Shown here in pieces: positions 1 through 7,446 of a stretch of 7,479 nt of DNA. The stretch lies in NCBI GenBank assembly GCA_024224995.1, contig JAAENB010000295.1, positions 1-7,479 of the forward strand, given 5' to 3'. The stretch's first letter is position 1, and each line of letters starts with the position of its first letter. The notes beneath the pieces were generated by a model. It saw nothing but the letters and a program-made list of their open reading frames with translations, ran no database searches and was not told the origin of the DNA. The position numbers were made by a program, and so were the translations under genes. The DNA is from a bacterium. Its GTDB lineage: Bacteria > Spirochaetota > UBA4802 > UBA5550.

Positions 1-104
1 AATGTAACCTATGCCGGAGCAATGCCTCTGCAGAACGTTCGGAACTCGCTCCGCTCAGACAGCCTCACAACCTGTAGAGGCATCACTCCGGCATAGGTTA
101 CATT
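1..104 (+). repeat. Long hairpin repeat, copy A
   Basis: Seen directly: positions 1-33 pair with 72-104 (AATGTAACCTATGCC at the left end matches its reverse complement at the right), with two mismatched pairs at 20-21 and one G-T pair at position 30. The 38-nt loop (34-71) carries GCTCCGCTCA and ends CCTCACAAC. The loop differs by one base from the loop of the hairpin at 3574-3693, which lies in the opposite orientation, and shares its core with the hairpin at 3167-3260. The window begins at the arm, so the element may extend further left. No T-run follows, so it is not a classical terminator. Function unknown. Confidence 0.93.
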
Positions 105-176
105 ACGAATTACGTTTTTCAGTATATTAAGACACGACCGACCCGGTTTAGCAGGGAAAAAAATACGGAAGAAAGT
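105..176 (+). repeat. Conserved flank of hairpin A with an element end (AAGAAAGT)
   Basis: This stretch matches, in reverse complement, the 62 bp at 3512-3573 beside hairpin C. Shared words include TACGTTTTTC, GACACGACCG, GCAGGG (151-156) and TACGGAAGAAA. The main difference is about ten bases around 142-150. It ends AAGAAAGT, one base off the AAGAAACT terminus of the other elements. Hairpin A plus this flank is therefore best read as one end of a larger mobile-type element, cut by the window edge. Confidence 0.8.
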
Positions 177-222
177 CCGAAAACAGTTTCAAATACTTCC
201 CCGGCAACCAGATCCGGGCCAG

Positions 223-257
223 AAACTTCAAACTTCAAACTTGAAACTTGAAACTTC
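223..257 (+). repeat. Five-copy heptamer tandem repeat (AAACTTC/AAACTTG)
   Basis: Five consecutive 7-bp units read AAACTTC, AAACTTC, AAACTTG, AAACTTG, AAACTTC with no gaps. Because of the C/G alternation, the middle is also partly self-complementary. It sits between the repeat element and the promoter of the 375-1868 gene. It may be a slippage-prone microsatellite. No regulatory role can be shown. Confidence 0.9.
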
Positions 258-265
258 CCCAAAAA

Positions 266-281
266 GTGAGTAACCACTCAC
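266..281. promoter_or_regulatory. Small perfect inverted repeat, possible operator
   Basis: GTGAGT (266-271) and ACTCAC (276-281) are perfect inverted arms around AACC. It lies 25 bp upstream of the -35 box of the 375-1868 gene, a position compatible with an activator or repressor site. It could equally be chance, because the arms are only 6 bp and no second copy is seen in the window. Confidence 0.3.
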
Positions 282-306
282 GAACCTTTTATTTAGAATT
301 ATTCAC

Positions 307-334
307 TTGACAAAATAGCCAAGAAGACTAGAGT
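307..334 (+). promoter_or_regulatory. Probable sigma-70-type promoter for the WecA-like gene
   Basis: A consensus -35 box TTGACA (307-312) is followed after 16 bp by TAGAGT (329-334), which matches four of six bases of TATAAT. The surrounding DNA is AT-rich. The expected start of transcription is near 341, giving a leader of about 35 nt before the ATG at 375. The perfect -35 is the main support. The -10 is moderate. Confidence 0.55.
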
Positions 335-374
335 TCCAAAAAAATATTAAAAAGCAAACATAAGCACAGAGACA

Positions 375-1868
375 ATGAAACAGATTACCCTGATAGAAGG
401 ATTAAATTACTTTCTTATAGCATTACTAATTTCCGTAACAATTATCCCTCTTGTTATATATTTATCCAAAAGGTTCAACCTCTATGACCGTATTGACTGG
501 CGAAAAGACCATGAGGGCGAGATTAGCCGGATTGGGGGAATTGCCATTTTTCTTGGTTTTCTCATCCCCTTTCTTTTCGTAATAGAAACCAAGGGATTAA
601 AGTTTAATTTGCCCATTTATATCGGCGCCATGTGCCTGGCCTTTATTACGGGGTTTATTGATGACCTGTTTTCCATAAAAGCCCGTTATAAGCTGGTTTT
701 GCAGATAGTCTGCGGTTTACTCATTGCCTTTTCCGGTCTGGAGATCGTTTCTCTTTCGGAAGTGCTCCTGCTTCCGTCATTTTTATCATTTATTCTAACT
801 ATTGTCTGGGTTGTAATTTTTATGAACGCCATCAATCTTCTTGATGGTATGGACGGTCTGGCATCGGGAATTGTTTTAATTGCCAATATCTTTGTATTTA
901 TCATGTCCCTTCCCTTATTTACGGGAAATCCCATCATTTGCGCTATGGCCATAATCATGGCCGGTGCGATCCTGGGATTTTATATATTCAATTTTCCCCC
1001 GGCAAAAATATTTATGGGTGACGGCGGCGCCTATTTTCTCGGATTTATGTATGCCACTATGCCGCTAATTGAATCCATGAAAACATCCGTTGCTACCCTG
1101 TTCTTAATCCCCTTAATTCTCCTGCTTGTTCCTATTGGTGACATTATGCAGGTTATGCTCAGACGGATGAGAATGGGTGATAATATTTTTATTGCCGATA
1201 AAAACCATATTCACCACCGTCTTATGGCTATTGGTCTTTCTATTCGCGGGATCATCTTTGTGCTGTATGTATTTACCACGATACTTGGGCTTACCGCTAT
1301 TCTCATGGTCCATATTGAAACAAAATTCTCCTATCTTCTCTTTGGCATCATTGCCCTGCTTCTTCTCTGGTCCATGTACCTGCTTAACTCTGTTGAACGG
1401 ATCCTTGAAAAGAAGATCGATGAAAGTGACGAAAATACCCGGAAGTTTATCCGGCTGAATTCAAATAATCCCATGGATATCACAACAACGGATATGGACA
1501 CTCCCATGACAAGAGGGATGTCCTTTGATCTTACGCCCATGGGCATTTCCTTTATCACCAATACCGAATGGCCCCAGGAACAAATCCTGCATATTAGCTA
1601 TCATATCCCCGGAGAGTCAAAGCCTGTTAAACTGAAAGCTATTGTTGTGTGGTCAAAGCCCATTGAAAAGAGTATGGCTTTTTTTACCGGGGCACAGGTG
1701 ATTGCCATTGACAATGAAAATAAATTTATTACCAATTTTTATTTTCAAATGCTAAAAGACATGACCGCCGATGTTGTTGATATTTCCGACACTGAGCCTG
1801 TTCGAAAAATCCACAAACGAACCTCCGCGAAAAACAAGACCGGCAAGACCGGCAAGAAAAAGAACTGA
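375..1868 (+). CDS. WecA/TagO-type polyprenyl-phosphate sugar-1-phosphate transferase with C-terminal PilZ-like domain
   Basis: A membrane enzyme expected to move GlcNAc-1-phosphate (or a related HexNAc-1-P) from its UDP donor to undecaprenyl phosphate, the first step of lipid-linked glycan synthesis. Family motifs are all present: D96-D97 with K106, N151xxN154xxDGxDGLA (157-163), FMGDGG (213-218), and HIHHR (278-282), which is typical of WecA/TagO rather than MraY. About ten hydrophobic segments fill residues 10-340. Unusually, about 150 residues follow: RKFIR (356-360) fits the PilZ RxxxR motif and DLTPMG (385-390), 25 residues later, fits DxSxxG with T for S, followed by a beta-rich stretch to about 460 and a Lys-rich tail. 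Known family members without this tail are about 320-380 residues. The cyclic-di-GMP role is inferred. The only Shine-Dalgarno candidate, AGAG at 368-371, is weak and close, but no upstream in-frame start exists. The stop lies 7 bp from the convergent gene. Confidence 0.93.
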   Translation: MKQITLIEGLNYFLIALLISVTIIPLVIYLSKRFNLYDRIDWRKDHEGEISRIGGIAIFLGFLIPFLFVIETKGLKFNLPIYIGAMCLAFITGFIDDLFSIKARYKLVLQIVCGLLIAFSGLEIVSLSEVLLLPSFLSFILTIVWVVIFMNAINLLDGMDGLASGIVLIANIFVFIMSLPLFTGNPIICAMAIIMAGAILGFYIFNFPPAKIFMGDGGAYFLGFMYATMPLIESMKTSVATLFLIPLILLLVPIGDIMQVMLRRMRMGDNIFIADKNHIHHRLMAIGLSIRGIIFVLYVFTTILGLTAILMVHIETKFSYLLFGIIALLLLWSMYLLNSVERILEKKIDESDENTRKFIRLNSNNPMDITTTDMDTPMTRGMSFDLTPMGISFITNTEWPQEQILHISYHIPGESKPVKLKAIVVWSKPIEKSMAFFTGAQVIAIDNENKFITNFYFQMLKDMTADVVDISDTEPVRKIHKRTSAKNKTGKTGKKKN

Positions 1869-1871
1869 CAA

Positions 1872-1897
1872 GGGGTCAGGGGTCAGGGGTCAGGGGT
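1872..1897. repeat. GGGGTCA heptamer array at the convergent gene junction
   Basis: Three exact GGGGTCA units (1872-1878, 1879-1885, 1886-1892) and a partial GGGGT (1893-1897) fill the gap between the two convergent genes. On the minus strand the array encodes the last residues and stop of the 1876-3126 gene (PLTPDP then TGA). Seven is not a multiple of three, so gain or loss of one unit would change that C-terminus. No hairpin-plus-T-run terminator is visible at this junction. Confidence 0.9.
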
Positions 1898-3126
1898 TGT
1901 GAACCTTTACCAGCGGCTTCTTCAATATACCGGTACATCTTAGCGGCCAGCTGTTCCCGGTCGTAGTCCCGGGCCAGTTTTCCGCATCCTTTTTGCAGCT
2001 TCCGGTATAATTTTTTATCCGCTTTGACCTGTTTTACCGTTCGAATAAAATCTTCCCTGTTTTCGGGTTCATAACAGAGCCCGGCAGTATAGTGCTGCAC
2101 GATCCGCGCGGCCTCCCCTTCCACTCCCAGGAGCACCGGTTTTTCCATGGCAGATGCTTCAAATATCTTCGACGGTATTACTGTCTTAAAGGTGTCGGAC
2201 CGTTTCAGGTTCACCAGGGAACAATCAAGAATTGATACATACCCTGCCACCTCCTCTTTGGATACCGGGTCCAGGAACGTCACGTTCCTGAGTCCCCGCC
2301 GCTCTGCTTCGGCTGCGACCTCTTCTTTTTGGGCTCCGTCTCCTATAAATAGAAAATGGATCTCCGGGTCCCCGGATAATTCTATTGAATCGATTGCATC
2401 AATAATAAAATCAAGGGCGTGAGCCATGCCGTGGGTTCCAATATATCCCACGATAAATTTATTCTCCAACCCCAGTTTTTGCAGCAGTTCCCGGTTCTTT
2501 TCTCCCGGGGTAAAAATCCCGAGATTTGACCCGTTGGTTACTACCCGGACCTTCTCCGCCGGGATTCCCCGCTTTTCCAGGTTTCTTTTAAAGGCTTCGG
2601 TTACGGCAATAACCATGGTCGACTTCCGGTATAAAAAGAGTTCCATCTTTTCAAAAAAGTCAAGTACCCGGCTTGTTTTCATCGCGCCCACTGCCCGGAT
2701 CGATTCGGGCCAGAGATCCCTGAGTTCAAAGATCCAGGGAACCCGTTTTACCCGTGACAGGAGATACCCGGTGTTGGTGGTAAAGAACTGGGGCGATGTT
2801 GCTATTATAATATCGGTTTTTACGCGCAGTCCGGCCCAGAACGCGCTAAAGGCAAAGCTGGTATAATCGAGTATTCGTTTAAAAAATCCCTTGTTTGGCG
2901 CCATATAACTCCAGACTCGGACTACCCGTATCCCTTCCATATATTCGACCTGCCTGAGCCTGTTCCGGTACCCCGGGAAAACCTTTCCCCGGGGAAAATT
3001 TGGCGCGCAGGTTATTACGGTTATTTCCGCCCCCTGTTTGATCCACTCCTTGCAGTGTTCATACGTCCTGGTTGCCGGGGCGTTTACCTCAGGGGGGAAG
3101 TTGTCAGTGATAAATAATATTTTCAT
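1876..3126 (-). CDS. WbuB-like family 4 glycosyltransferase
   Basis: A cytoplasmic, probably membrane-associated GT-B enzyme that would add one sugar to the lipid-linked glycan. Donor and acceptor cannot be read from sequence; E. coli WbuB, the name-giver, handles N-acetyl-L-fucosamine. Residues 1-60 carry the subgroup's N-terminal signature (ITDNFPPEVNAPATRTYEH, then TCAPNFPRGKV). ELRDLWPESI (134-143) is highly typical of this subgroup. The C-terminal nucleotide-binding half holds VVTNGSN (195-201), GYIGTHGMAHALD (227-239) and PSKIFEASAMEKPVLL (318-333). The 416-residue length is normal. The ATG at 3126 follows GAGAGCAGG (complement of 3132-3140), with AGG 5 nt from the start, and this ribosome-binding region lies inside a repeat-element end. 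The last residues come from a heptamer array. The fusion gene 620 bp upstream on the same strand was probably its operon partner. Confidence 0.92.
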   Translation of the reverse strand: MKILFITDNFPPEVNAPATRTYEHCKEWIKQGAEITVITCAPNFPRGKVFPGYRNRLRQVEYMEGIRVVRVWSYMAPNKGFFKRILDYTSFAFSAFWAGLRVKTDIIIATSPQFFTTNTGYLLSRVKRVPWIFELRDLWPESIRAVGAMKTSRVLDFFEKMELFLYRKSTMVIAVTEAFKRNLEKRGIPAEKVRVVTNGSNLGIFTPGEKNRELLQKLGLENKFIVGYIGTHGMAHALDFIIDAIDSIELSGDPEIHFLFIGDGAQKEEVAAEAERRGLRNVTFLDPVSKEEVAGYVSILDCSLVNLKRSDTFKTVIPSKIFEASAMEKPVLLGVEGEAARIVQHYTAGLCYEPENREDFIRTVKQVKADKKLYRKLQKGCGKLARDYDREQLAAKMYRYIEEAAGKGSQPLTPDP

Positions 3127-3130
3127 TTAA

Positions 3131-3150
3131 GCCTGCTCTCAAGAAACTTA
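3131..3150 (+). repeat. Partial end of an AGAAACT element, next to a start codon
   Basis: CTGCTCTCAAGAAACT (3133-3148) is identical to the right end of the element at 3281-3340 and nearly so to that at 3512-3750. The rest of an element is missing: coding sequence begins 5 bp away. Read on the minus strand it supplies the GAGAGCAGG ribosome-binding-like sequence of the 1876-3126 gene. It is either a remnant or one end used as a boundary. Confidence 0.75.
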
Positions 3151-3166
3151 ATTTTGTTTGTGCGCG

Positions 3167-3260
3167 GGCCTGTAAGTAGTATGGGCTCTTTGGATTGCTG
3201 CGGAACTCGCTCCGCTCAAACAGTCCTCACAACCCAAAGAGCCCATACTACTTACAGGCC
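3167..3260 (+). repeat. Long hairpin repeat, copy B
   Basis: The 27-bp arms at 3167-3193 and 3234-3260 are perfectly complementary (outer end GGCCTGTAAGTAGTATGGG). The 40-nt loop holds GGAACTCGCTCCGCTCA and ends CCTCACAAC, as in hairpin A and in the same orientation. The stem sequence is largely different from copies A and C apart from short words (TGTAA, TATG). The 72-bp flank found with A and C is absent here. It lies between two glycan genes of the same strand. No terminator T-run follows on either strand. Confidence 0.93.
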
Positions 3261-3280
3261 AGATGCAGCTCGCAATGCTA

Positions 3281-3340
3281 TTTAGTTTCTGACGTATTTT
3301 TTCCCTGTTCGACAGGGTCAGCTGCTCTCAAGAAACTAAA
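3281..3340 (+). mobile_element. Minimal 60-bp element with perfect 10-bp terminal inverted repeats
   Basis: TTTAGTTTCT (3281-3290) and AGAAACTAAA (3331-3340) are perfect inverted termini. Inside are GACGTATTTTTTCCCTG, a small stem CCCTG/CAGGG (3303-3307 with 3313-3317, loop TTCGA), and GGGTCAGCTGCTCTCA. The same end sequences bound the elements at 3512-3750 and 7282-7363, which carry longer interiors, so this looks like an internal-deletion or minimal form. No coding capacity. It is MITE-like, and any transposase would act from elsewhere. No clear target-site duplication is seen. Confidence 0.8.
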
Positions 3341-3511
3341 ATTTAACTCGGGTCTGTTTCCGAAGATATAGCCCAGGGGTTGGTTTCTACGAGACGTTGC
3401 GTGCAACGCCTTTACGGGCCTTTTCCCGTAGCACCTTCGAAAACGAGCCCCTCGCAGGGGTCGCACACCTTGCCCGGAGCATCTTCGCAAATTTGACCCC
3501 GGTATCACCGC
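3341..3511. other. Gene-less stretch with several short stem-loops
   Basis: No credible gene. It contains CGTTGC/GCAACG (3395-3408), TACGGG/CCCGTA (3413-3430, loop CCTTTT) and CCCC/GGGG (3448-3460, loop TCGCA) in close succession. It is bounded by CGGGTCTGTTTCC near its left end and TTTGACCCC near its right, ends that resemble REP-type GGGGTC words. It may be another repeat unit of this genome or a decayed structured element. A single copy in the window does not settle this. Confidence 0.45.
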
Positions 3512-3750
3512 AGTTTCTTCCGTATTTTTTCCCTGCTTCGCGGTCGTGTCTCAATATACCGAAAAACGTAATTCGGAATGTAAATTATGCCAGCCTGGAG
3601 TGATGCCTCGGCAGGTTGTGAGGCTGTTTGAGCGGAGCGAGTTCCGAACGTTCTGCAGAGGTATTACTCCAGGCTGGCATAATTTACATTCCGGGTTGAT
3701 ATACCTTATATGGCCCGCTCTGCAGGGTCAGCTGCCCTCAAGAAACTAAA
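3512..3750 (+). mobile_element. Full-length AGTTTCTT/AAGAAACT element carrying hairpin C
   Basis: The left terminus AGTTTCTT (3512-3519) is followed by CCGTATTTTTTCCCTGC. The right terminus AAGAAACT (3740-3747) is preceded by GCAGGGTCAGCTGCCCTC. CCCTGC (3531-3536) and GCAGGG (3722-3727) form an inner inverted repeat. Hairpin C (3574-3693) lies between. The right end runs into the 3' end of the fusion gene: its TAG stop (complement of 3746-3748) lies inside the terminus. No protein is encoded. It is probably a non-autonomous, MITE-like or REP-like repeat. Confidence 0.78.
3574..3693 (-). repeat. Long hairpin repeat, copy C
   Basis: The 41-nt arms at 3574-3614 and 3653-3693 pair with two G-T pairs and one mismatch. 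The 38-nt loop is, in reverse complement, identical to that of hairpin A except at one base. Aligned to A, the stem has two substituted base pairs that change on both sides (C-G to A-T, C-G to T-A) and a 5-bp insertion present symmetrically in both arms (AGCCT left, AGGCT right), plus three extra outer pairs. Pairing is thus kept while sequence changes. Confidence 0.93.
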
Positions 3751-6451
3751 TAATCAGAGTCGCAAGCTTACCACGGAACCGCACCCGAACCACCTTTGCC
3801 GCAACGAGCTTGTTAAACTCAGGAGCGTACATATAATCATCCAGTGTGATATCCTCTGCCCCGGTCATTGTTATTACAACAGAGCCAACCCTTATCTCAT
3901 TAGCGGTAATTACCGGTTCCAGGCCGGGATAAAAATGGAGATTGGCAAAAGAGTTGTACTCGTTCCGGGGATTTTTCATTGATATCGTATCAACAATAAC
4001 GATCTCTTCTTCGCCGAATTCAAATCTCCTTGAGTGAAGCGCTCCCTTTTTTTTATAGCCCGTATGGGCAGCTTCGATATGAGTTTCCATGCCGGTATTT
4101 GTTTCCCGGAGATTTACTACCCGGGCTCTTCTGCCCACCCTGAAAGCGGACCAGACCTCGGACTGTTCAAAGTCCTCTACCTGAACAGTATTATGAGAGC
4201 CCGTAGACCGCTCTTCCTGCCTGCGGCTGTTTATTTCATAGGTTGATGTTCCGGAATCAACAATAAACGGGCTGTTATTTATGTAAAGCTCAAAATTGAA
4301 TATATCACAATGGCCGTGCCCCGGGATGTAATCAGGACCGATTTGACCTATGTCTATGAGCATATCATAGCTTTTACCCCGTATCCGGCGATAGCCGGAG
4401 TCCTTGAGGCCGGGGCTGTTTTCCGGGCAGGAAATCTTTAGCTCCCGGGCATAGAGATTAATCTCTTTCGTAGTTGGCGCGATCCCAAAAGCGCTGTCGC
4501 TAAACAGGGGGATAGACCCGTTCGCGAAGGTCATCTCGCGCAGCCACTGAAGCATGAGCCCGGCTTTTTCCCGCAGCAGGTTCAGCAAGGGATCCTGTTC
4601 CGGTCCCCTCTCTATTCTATTATTTCCCATAAGGTCGATACAGCCAAGAAGCCGGAAAAGGATTACCTGGTGATACATGGGTGAAAGCTCAAAATTAGCT
4701 CCATCGGGCAGAACCTGTTCTTCCAGCTGGGTTTTTATAATGGCAGCCGCTTTTTTATAAAAACGCGGATCGTTAAAATAGTACGCCCCGTAAAGAAGGG
4801 ACAGGCCGTTTTCCAGGAGATGATTTCCCATGAGATGATACTCGGGATTTTTACACAAAAACCGGTACTGGCCATAGAGGGCCGCGTCAATTCCGGGATC
4901 GGTAATTCCGTTCCGCGCGAGGAACCGTATCCAGTTTATCCCCCGGAGCGATAGCGGGTACGGCTCCATTCCTTCATGGTTATACGCGATTGTTTTAACA
5001 AAAGAACGTATGAGGGCAAGCCCCTGTTCTACCGGAAGATCTTCCCGGTTTAAATAATCAAAATAGTTCAGGTTATAGACCCAGAGCTTTCCATACTCCG
5101 GGTAATTCCAATCGATATGGCCCTCAAAACTCTTGAAGCGGTTCAGGAACGTAAAACCGGTTCCGGCAGCCTCTTTTATTACGGAACTCCACGCTTTAAC
5201 GGAATTTGCGTCCTTCAGAGTAAGTAACCTTCCCTGCACGGAGCCTGCTTTGGGTACGGTGTACCGCGCTCCGAAGAAAGGGACTGTTCTTTTGGCAATC
5301 GCATAATAAACCCGGTACAGGATCTGTCTCAGCTTTAAGTAGCGGACAGTTCTCATAAGCAGTAACAGTTTCGTAAACACAGCGTGTAGAGAAGAGGCAT
5401 ACCTCTCCTCTACACGCAAGGTCCCAATCTCCTCAAGAAACCGCCCAACAACAGTTTCCGCGCGAAACTTCTCCGCCTCTTTCACGCACTTCTTCTTCAT
5501 CCGGTCCAGCTCACCCGTATTCGCGGCAACAGCGCCCAAACGCTCCGCCAGGCTCTCCAAAGAATTCGCCTCACAGAGAAACCCGGTCTCTCCCTCTTTC
5601 ACCAGCTCCCTGTTATACTTCCAGTCCGAAGCCAGAACAGGCACCCCGGCAATAAAGGCTTCTATGAGGACTCCGGGAAATCCTTCTCCCTCGTAGAACG
5701 TGGGAAAAAGCATAAGATCGTAGCCCGACAACATCTCGTAAATGCCTTCCGTTGCGATTCCCTTATAACAAATATAAGACGGGAATTTTTTATTAAGCGC
5801 CGTAAAAGCGGGCTCGTATTCTTTTTCTACCGGTCCGTATATATCCAGGCTAACCGCGGCTGTTCCTGTTTTCGCGTTAAGCGCGGAAACGGCAGCACAG
5901 GCAAGTTCCACTCCTTTGTCTTTAGAGACCCGTGAAAAGAAAATCGCCTTTACCGGTTTCCCGGTTTTTTTTATTTTAGGAACAAACGAATATTCCCTGA
6001 AATTGGGCAGGCAGCCCACGTTTCGAAGCCCCAGCTCTTCCAGGCGCTCTTTCATAATCATGGTCTCTACATAAATGCCGCTCAGCCGCCCGCACCTGCG
6101 TAAAAGCGAACTGCTGCGCGCAAGGAGCTCCGGGAGCCAGCCGCCAATGACAATATACCGAATATCTTTGTTATCCTTCCGGTTCCACCGGAGAAGCAAG
6201 GGAAGAAAAACCCGGAGTCCATTGATCCCGGGAAGCAGGAACACCCGGGAACTCTGCTTAAAAGCATCGCGTAATTCACGGTAAAGCCTGAAGGGGTGCC
6301 GCTTCCAGCCATTGCTGTCAACACGAAGGATCTCGCTCCGGGGCAGCTGTTTACTTATTGTTTCATCGAACAAACGGGTCTTAATTACCTGGCCGCCAAT
6401 AATGCCGCTGCCCGTTCCGAAAGCTCCGCAAATGAGTATCTTTTTATTCAT
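3746..6451 (-). CDS. Fusion protein: family 4 glycosyltransferase plus heparinase II/III-type lyase
   Basis: Residue numbers here count from a possible TTG start at 6469; subtract 6 for the chosen ATG at 6451. That ATG is preferred because GGAAAG (complement of 6459-6464) sits 7 nt before it. Residues 7-350 form a GT4 glycosyltransferase: FFSRVSKDKGVEL (177-189) and an E-x7-E motif, E262 to E270 within EGEGFPGVLIEAF. Residues 365-907 resemble the heparinase II/III (alginate-lyase-like) proteins of polysaccharide clusters: YRVYY near 385, GNHLLENG (548-555), ELSPMYH (594-600) and GHGHCDIFNFEL (717-728). N549, Y599 and H718 or H720 are the likely catalytic residues by family analogy. Such proteins usually stand alone at about 550-650 residues. 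No signal peptide or membrane segment is evident, odd for a lyase. The junction (351-363) is encoded by a palindrome. The stop lies inside a repeat element, so the C-terminus may have been altered. Confidence 0.88.
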   Translation of the reverse strand: MNKKILICGAFGTGSGIIGGQVIKTRLFDETISKQLPRSEILRVDSNGWKRHPFRLYRELRDAFKQSSRVFLLPGINGLRVFLPLLLRWNRKDNKDIRYIVIGGWLPELLARSSSLLRRCGRLSGIYVETMIMKERLEELGLRNVGCLPNFREYSFVPKIKKTGKPVKAIFFSRVSKDKGVELACAAVSALNAKTGTAAVSLDIYGPVEKEYEPAFTALNKKFPSYICYKGIATEGIYEMLSGYDLMLFPTFYEGEGFPGVLIEAFIAGVPVLASDWKYNRELVKEGETGFLCEANSLESLAERLGAVAANTGELDRMKKKCVKEAEKFRAETVVGRFLEEIGTLRVEERYASSLHAVFTKLLLLMRTVRYLKLRQILYRVYYAIAKRTVPFFGARYTVPKAGSVQGRLLTLKDANSVKAWSSVIKEAAGTGFTFLNRFKSFEGHIDWNYPEYGKLWVYNLNYFDYLNREDLPVEQGLALIRSFVKTIAYNHEGMEPYPLSLRGINWIRFLARNGITDPGIDAALYGQYRFLCKNPEYHLMGNHLLENGLSLLYGAYYFNDPRFYKKAAAIIKTQLEEQVLPDGANFELSPMYHQVILFRLLGCIDLMGNNRIERGPEQDPLLNLLREKAGLMLQWLREMTFANGSIPLFSDSAFGIAPTTKEINLYARELKISCPENSPGLKDSGYRRIRGKSYDMLIDIGQIGPDYIPGHGHCDIFNFELYINNSPFIVDSGTSTYEINSRRQEERSTGSHNTVQVEDFEQSEVWSAFRVGRRARVVNLRETNTGMETHIEAAHTGYKKKGALHSRRFEFGEEEIVIVDTISMKNPRNEYNSFANLHFYPGLEPVITANEIRVGSVVITMTGAEDITLDDYMYAPEFNKLVAAKVVRVRFRGKLATLII
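5382..5417. repeat. 36-bp palindrome inside the coding sequence at the domain junction
   Basis: GCGTGTAGAG (5382-5391) pairs with CTCTACACGC (5408-5417). After one mismatch, AGAGG (5393-5397) pairs with CCTCT (5402-5406) around a CATA loop. It encodes residues 351-363 of the fusion protein (numbered from 6469), between the end of the glycosyltransferase domain and the first lyase residues. It resembles in-frame palindromic insertions such as those known from Rickettsia, although its sequence matches no other repeat in this window. Confidence 0.85.
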
Positions 6452-6458
6452 TATTATA

Positions 6459-6464
6459 CTTTCC
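6459..6464 (-). promoter_or_regulatory. Ribosome-binding site that decides the start of the fusion gene
   Basis: GGAAAG on the minus strand lies 7 nt before the ATG at 6451. The upstream TTG at 6469 lacks a comparable purine-rich site at the right distance, so the ATG is favoured and the protein begins MNKKILICGAFG. Confidence 0.6.
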
Positions 6465-6485
6465 GGCAATAAGTCTTAAAAATCA

Positions 6486-7174: not shown

Positions 7175-7281
7175 TCAATCTCCCTTGAGAATCTTCTTTA
7201 AAATATTTCATTTGTCAGCTCATTTCCCTGGTAGTTCGTTATCAAACAGTAAATATTAAAAAAAATTTTACGCAAGCAAAA
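7175..7281. other. AT-rich spacer with no recognised feature
   Basis: The spacer lies between the CGGC-domain gene and the next repeat element. No clear intrinsic terminator follows the stop codon. AT-rich words (AATATTT at 7202 and AAATATT at 7251) are too short and too far apart to call. Confidence 0.5.
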
Positions 7282-7363
7282 TTTAGTTTCTTGAGAGCAG
7301 CTGACCCCGGCCCTTCGGCTCCGCTCAGGGACCGGATGGCCGGGAAAAAATACGGAAGAAACT
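7282..7363 (-). mobile_element. AGTTTCTT/AAGAAACT element, fourth site
   Basis: TTTAGTTTCTTGAGAGCAG (from 7282) and TACGGAAGAAACT (ending 7363) are the same termini as in the elements at 3281-3340 and 3512-3750, here in reverse orientation. An inner inverted repeat CCCGGCC (7306-7312) / GGCCGGG (7338-7344) encloses a 25-nt loop containing GCTCCGCTCA (7318-7327), the decamer shared by hairpins A, B and C. It is 82 bp with no coding capacity, intermediate between the minimal and full forms. Confidence 0.8.
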
Positions 7364-7393
7364 GTTTTTAAAAAATGGATCGGTTTCAGCATG

Positions 7394-7446
7394 GGGCTAC
7401 CCGGGGGTGAATCCCCGGGCTACATGACTATACCCCTCCGGGGTAT
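7394..7446 (+). repeat. REP-like double hairpin
   Basis: There are two adjacent stems: CCCGGGG (7400-7406) with CCCCGGG (7413-7419), loop GTGAAT, flanked by direct copies of GGGCTAC; and ATACCCC (7430-7436) with GGGGTAT (7440-7446), loop TCC. GC-rich paired hairpins of this style are typical of bacterial intergenic REP/BIME repeats, often mobilised by RAYT (Y1 HUH) transposases. No such transposase lies in the window. T-runs are lacking, so a terminator role is less likely. Confidence 0.65.

Follow-up and report, generated by a model that had tools for sequence, protein, structure and literature searches.

We analysed a 7,479-nucleotide stretch of bacterial DNA (hereafter the window; contig JAAENB010000295.1 of GenBank assembly GCA_024224995.1) that carries three long hairpins, A, B and C, and compared them with three further copies, D, E and F, on a second contig. 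The six copies fall into two types, each with its own flanks, which have a tip core in common; between copies the stem sequence differs and pairing is kept, and in type 1 this paired variation is limited to the outer stem. From these six copies we infer, with a probability of roughly one half, that the hairpins are DNA repeats resembling bacterial interspersed mosaic elements (BIMEs) and miniature inverted-repeat transposable elements (MITEs), with outer stems rewritten by copying from one arm to the other, rather than RNAs maintained by compensatory mutation. On this reading the family is non-coding and intergenic, its mosaic repeats being dispersed in the genome of a single uncultured bacterium or of close kin, probably within the Spirochaetota.

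A constant loop core in hairpins with variable stems

An original prediction made from the window alone had proposed three hairpins with a nearly constant loop core. All three are present where it placed them, with arms that could be located and that pair far beyond chance, and the cores of A, B and C, written CGGAACTCGCTCCGCTCARACAG(T)CCTCACAAC, are identical save for one substitution in A and one extra T in B. It had also recommended searching for the loop core with any stem attached. A scan of a species-genome collection for exact matches to the two-part loop pattern, which diverged cores would escape, found a single contig (L001: JAAEMX010000089.1, 3,011 bases, filed under a metagenome-assembled genome, or MAG, of Lentisphaerae) and thereby three more copies. 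The hairpins and their cores are as follows.

Window 1–104, plus strand: hairpin A, type 1, with 19 outer pairs, an imperfect inner stem and a 38-base loop; arms 1–33 and 72–104; begins at the contig edge
Window 40–69, plus strand: loop core of A, 30 bases, differing from that of C by a single substitution
Window 3167–3260, plus strand: hairpin B, type 2, with a perfect 27-bp stem and the foot GGCCTG/CAGGCC; arms 3167–3197 and 3230–3260
Window 3201–3231, plus strand: loop core of B, 31 bases long owing to an additional T
Window 3574–3693, minus strand: hairpin C, type 1, whose stem has 27 outer pairs without a mismatch and 14 inner positions of which three are mismatched, with a 38-base loop; arms 3574–3614 and 3653–3693
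Window 3617–3646, minus strand: loop core of C, 30 bases
L001 1–93: hairpin D, type 1, its outer left arm lost at the contig start
L001 203–288: hairpin E, type 2
L001 2891–3010: hairpin F, type 1; the contig ends one base beyond it

The core thus lies on the plus strand in A and B and on the minus strand in C, and D and F have the same orientation on L001. Folded as single-stranded DNA, A, B and C reach z-scores of -9.8, -10.6 and -11.4, and as RNA -10.9, -9.8 and -12.8 (C on the minus strand), with none of 200 shuffles folding as well in each case. The analytic expectation of a perfect stem arising by chance in this window, with loops of up to 90, is about 4e-11 for 27 bp and about 3e-6 for 19 bp. 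Judged by eye, the core could itself fold into a small tip hairpin, CGGA-ACTCGC-TCCG. The contig opens with the outer left arm of A, which takes up its first 15 bases and is therefore the least secure of the arms.

Paired and one-sided stem changes

Type 1 comprises A, C, D and F, and type 2 comprises B and E; the loop core, 30 bases long in type 1 (with the substitution in A) and 31 in type 2 with the extra T, is the only part clearly common to both. Outside it, stems of the two types show no similarity above the shuffled level (155 and 125 of 1000), and their flanks give no convincing alignment.

The argument is carried by the comparison of B with E, the statistics of type 1 alone being modest. 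The cores of B and E are identical over all 31 bases, their flanks agree at 70 of 80 aligned bases (27/34 and 43/46, gaps excluded), and both have the same foot, GGCCTG/CAGGCC. Above this foot, only 5 of 21 stem bases match in register, which is no better than shuffles (190 of 1000); nevertheless B pairs at 27 of 27 positions, as had been predicted, and E at 26 of 27. Stems that are unrelated yet paired, set between like flanks and an identical core, lean towards copying.

Within type 1, C and F differ at a single one of 41 stem positions, and this difference is a flipped pair, A-T versus T-A. Between A and C, whose flanks match over 51 nt at 90%, the outer stem has two neighbouring pairs changed on both arms and a symmetric 5-bp insertion or deletion, the stem changes that the original prediction had described; paired changes that come as neighbouring pairs together with a symmetric indel likewise lean towards copying. 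Across A, C and F, three pairs are changed on both sides, compared with 1.1 in shuffles (20 of 500 shuffles being as high), and both-sided changes are absent from all six slid versions of this comparison. The two-sided overlap between A and C gives p = 0.06 over 33 comparable pairs and p = 0.006 over the outer 19 pairs alone, an outer/inner split that was chosen after viewing the data, and the paired change between C and F gives p = 0.024. D differs from F by two right-arm changes at positions whose left partners are missing in D. Over the outer type-1 and the type-2 stems together, 126 of 127 scored pairs are Watson-Crick and none is G-T in core orientation; the remaining pair is C-A, which reads as G-T on the opposite strand.

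The inner type-1 stem retains two or three mismatches per copy, and over its 14 positions A and C show two left-arm and two other right-arm differences, all four of them one-sided. Arms that vary independently, the pattern that the original prediction had set against itself, are therefore found in this inner part and not elsewhere. Such mismatches and one-sided differences are expected of an anchor that is left uncopied while the outer arm is rewritten.

Proposed arm-to-arm copying and its alternatives

The original prediction had left a choice: either pairing is under selection, or one arm is regenerated as a copy of its partner. The B/E comparison, the clustering of the paired changes and the near-complete Watson-Crick pairing lean to the latter; the independently varying inner type-1 arms do not follow the predicted pattern. 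Copying, fold-back and tip recognition are steps that we infer, and they could be ordered as follows. A single strand would fold back during replication or movement, the inner stem or the loop edge anchoring the fold, and DNA synthesis would then proceed outward with one arm templating the other, so that a change or a foreign stretch in one arm would end up in both while the loop and the inner anchor stayed untouched. The constancy of the core might reflect a trans-acting factor that recognises the tip, or a recent spread of the copies. Recognition of the loop by some factor is a plausible candidate idea, because the core is the sole part clearly common to types 1 and 2. It is a long shot that the family represents a mobile hairpin defined by its tip, for which a putative enzyme would recognise the single-stranded core, move a fold-back intermediate and rebuild one arm per move; the stems would then be inherited yet free to turn over and to take in foreign stretches, with constancy confined to the tip and the flanks. 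A precedent for the copying step itself comes from RNA genes, for which template switching has been argued; one form of it is loop-primed synthesis, which fixes the stem while leaving the loop as it was (PMC8794818).

If the hairpins instead functioned as an RNA, or as a DNA substrate in single-stranded form, selection for pairing could have compensated one-sided mutations on the opposite arm. Both types do keep pairing, the tip is constant, and families of repetitive extragenic palindromic (REP) sequences with alternative complementary stem residues are on record; frequent GT pairs accompany them there (PMC3733652), whereas the outer and type-2 stems here have none in core orientation, although G-T would also be disfavoured if the substrate were DNA. 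Under pairing selection alone, double changes would be expected less often than single changes in unconstrained sequence, and the stems should accordingly lag behind the flanks; B and E show the reverse, with unrelated stems above the foot while core and flanks are alike. Unpaired changes moreover remain in the inner stem, and no Rfam family matches at gathering score; we consider this explanation unlikely. Equally improbable, in our judgement, is modular recombination, by which the core or the whole tip would have been inserted into, or exchanged between, ready-made palindromes whose stems were never derived from each other. This would suit the fact that little beyond the core is common to the two types, that a common origin of the B and E stems is not detectable, and that the surrounding repeat M (described below) holds different centres in one slot. 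However, it would need 21 bp to be replaced on both arms between a constant foot and core in B/E, while the C/F flip and the paired A/C changes are small steps in one evident lineage, and, apart from the hairpins themselves, none of five stem queries found anything longer than a 10-base chance match in either the window or L001. That an assembler duplicated arms at contig edges seems scarcely credible. The window does begin at the foot of A, and L001 begins within D and ends one base past F, but B, C and E are internal to their contigs with two unlike flanks, the left arm of A keeps left-specific inner bases, and the final base at F (a single base) matches the right flank of C and not the mirror of the left flank of F; nor can edge errors account for B/E.

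Several points weigh against arm-to-arm copying as well. There are six copies in all, one of which, D, has its outer left arm cut off, and the type-1 statistics are modest. In type 2 the variable part extends nearly to the loop, so that the anchor would be very short; E retains one mismatch, so that copying would not be constant; and no intermediate with one new and one old arm was seen among the six copies. Recombination between different repeats would give the same stem pattern, the flanks may be constrained too, such that stems outpacing them need not exceed the neutral rate, and the absence of G-T pairs does not discriminate between copying and selection for a hairpin in single-stranded DNA. 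A claim about mechanism needs more copies first. Paired stem changes are usually read as strong evidence of functional RNA. A repeat family in which stems change jointly on both arms, and to a greater degree than the flanks, would offer a natural setting in which to study arm-to-arm copying in bacteria, and would advise care when RNAs are predicted from covariation. Should a tip-recognising enzyme exist, it would represent a hairpin-moving system of a new kind.

A mosaic repeat around the hairpins

The hairpins occur together with a second repeat, M, the ends of which are ATTTAGTTTCTTGAGAGCAGCTGACCC and GGGAAAAAATACGGAAGAAACT. The following units and partial units were found in the window.

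3511–3751, minus strand: M unit holding hairpin C; left end 3725–3751, right end 3511–3533
3284–3340, minus strand: short M unit, its centre a small palindrome, CCCTGT/ACAGGG
7279–7364, plus strand: M unit centred on a different palindrome, with the foot CCCGGCC/GGCCGGG
3133–3154, minus strand: partial M left end adjoining hairpin B
158–174, plus strand: partial right end of M, lying downstream of hairpin A

The ends of M are constant and its self-paired centres differ among units, a pattern that also counts in favour of arm-to-arm copying; in two of the units the centre is a simple palindrome. The termini are inverted over 8 bases, AGTTTCTT (7285–7292) and AAGAAACT (7356–7363), and there is no gene in M. 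Partial M ends lie beside A, B, D and E. Where both sides are visible (C), type 1 lies inside M, and type 2 has an M right end on one side and an M left end on the other, both in the window and in L001. Ten core bases (GCTCCGCTCA) recur at 7318–7327 in the central palindrome of an M unit, which may be chance (E 0.18), and by eye a CCCCTCGCAGGGGTCGCAC-like palindrome is common to the gap between B and C (window 3437–3468) and to L001 137–159.

Genomic setting and origin of the second contig

Hairpins A, B and C all lie outside the genes taken as real. A is upstream of a gene (375–1868, plus strand) for a WecA/MraY-like glycosyltransferase whose C-terminal PilZ domain scores just above the Pfam cut-off (23.5 versus 22.5 bits). 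B and C both lie in the roughly 620 bases that separate a glycosyltransferase gene (1876–3126, minus strand) from a glycosyltransferase-heparinase gene (3746–6469, minus strand); the latter frame has a 16-bp inverted repeat with a 4-base loop (5382–5417) between its two domains. The best named relatives of the WecA-like protein are from Spirochaetota, the nearest at 52% identity, so that this phylum is only probable. On L001, the genes between D/E and F encode a ThiF-like protein, a DUF4379 zinc-finger protein with four such stretches and a 274-residue protein without a Pfam match.

L001 is probably misbinned and derived from the species of the window or close kin, because matches are confined to it and its composition is near that of the window. 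All seven matches to the repeat region of the window in the 4.3-Mb Lentisphaerae MAG are on L001, and among 194 genomes from the phylum of this MAG (with no more than three first-look candidates scored per listed genome) the single match was that MAG, again on L001. GC content is 0.45 in L001 and 0.47 in the window, with a four-base-word correlation of 0.86 between them. Fifteen other stretches of the MAG were fetched and six were long enough: three have a GC content of 0.32–0.37 (correlation to the window 0.58–0.63), one of 0.64, and two were unreadable. Three of the four ends of the window and L001 fall inside type-1 hairpins, which suggests, without giving a number, that the genome has many copies.

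Searches for relatives and other roles

The original prediction had advised looking for a RAYT, reverse transcriptase or other HUH enzyme gene with matching flanks; the scanned genes of the window include no transposase or reverse transcriptase, and PF01797, searched for as a sign of a RAYT (Y1 transposase), gave no match in the MAG holding L001, to which L001 is probably foreign. Rfam 15 gave no match to the window at gathering score, and at E up to 1 the hairpins matched only microRNA models, far below gathering. At the hairpin-rich contig end, window 7400–7445 has a sub-threshold match to the Acido-Lenti-1 RNA (27.4 bits, gathering 37; E 0.0043), a motif given for Acidobacteria and Lentisphaerae in Table 1 of PMC2864571.

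Viral contigs contained no match to the full loop pattern or to the M left end, and their three matches to a 17-base core, without inverted repeats in the 451–501 bases around them, were judged to be chance. The stems of B, E and C/F had no match there either, and hence there is no sign in these contigs of a viral stem origin. Phages and plasmids each gave no match to window 3133–3750, and no candidate with three shared words was found in the protein database for the translated hairpin frames. No description of these repeats was found in the literature, by titles and abstract starts among the matches listed, and three 16-base core strings had no match in the literature text searched. A main role as terminator is unlikely, because some copies precede genes and others follow them. 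A TTTTT run is found 7–10 bases past the foot of type 1, and a pattern scan of 3100–3800 found four terminator-like sites, two of them within the arms of B, against 0.8 in shuffles.

Comparison with known systems

The attC sites of integrons have paired stems of little sequence conservation between genes, with conserved boxes at the foot of the stem and a tip that varies. The cassettes of an attC array share one orientation and come with an integrase. The hairpins described here are likewise paired, poorly conserved in stem sequence and intergenic; however, the tip is their constant part, the genes are found on both strands, and A and C are oppositely oriented, and an integron array was rejected on these grounds. 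Repeat M is like MITEs and other small bacterial mosaic repeats in its short inverted ends, 8 bases long as terminal inverted repeats, and in having no gene, and differs from MITEs in the large variable hairpin at its centre; a source transposon and a clear target duplication are not known for it.

Closest to the family are the GTAG- and CGTC-tagged REP/BIME repeats, which are also dispersed intergenic palindromes in mosaic groups, with alternative complementary stem residues between units (PMC3733652). Table 1 of that paper gives REP stems of 5–13 bp and loops of 2–20 bp, whereas the stems here are at least 27 bp and the loops about 32–38 bases, and no GTAG or CGTC tag was seen beside the feet of A, B, C, E and F (by eye rather than by a systematic motif scan); for these reasons we do not file the family as REP. 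A BIME-like mosaic is present, in that M units occur together with hairpins of both types in the window as well as in L001. Quasipalindrome or template-switch mutation (PMC8794818) likewise yields clustered changes mirrored on the two arms with the loop kept, a pattern seen here in A/C, C/F and B/E, albeit in few copies and with no intermediates; there it is a process of mutation in RNA genes with no repeat family, and here it would concern dispersed DNA repeats and nearly whole stems. Since alternative complementary stem residues have already been reported for REP families (PMC3733652), it is not novel as such that the stems of dispersed palindromes vary in a paired manner. We regard the hairpins as a real repeat family of a generally known kind, of which we found no description, and what sets it apart, from REP sequences in particular, is the near-complete replacement of the stem between a constant foot, constant flanks and a constant tip.

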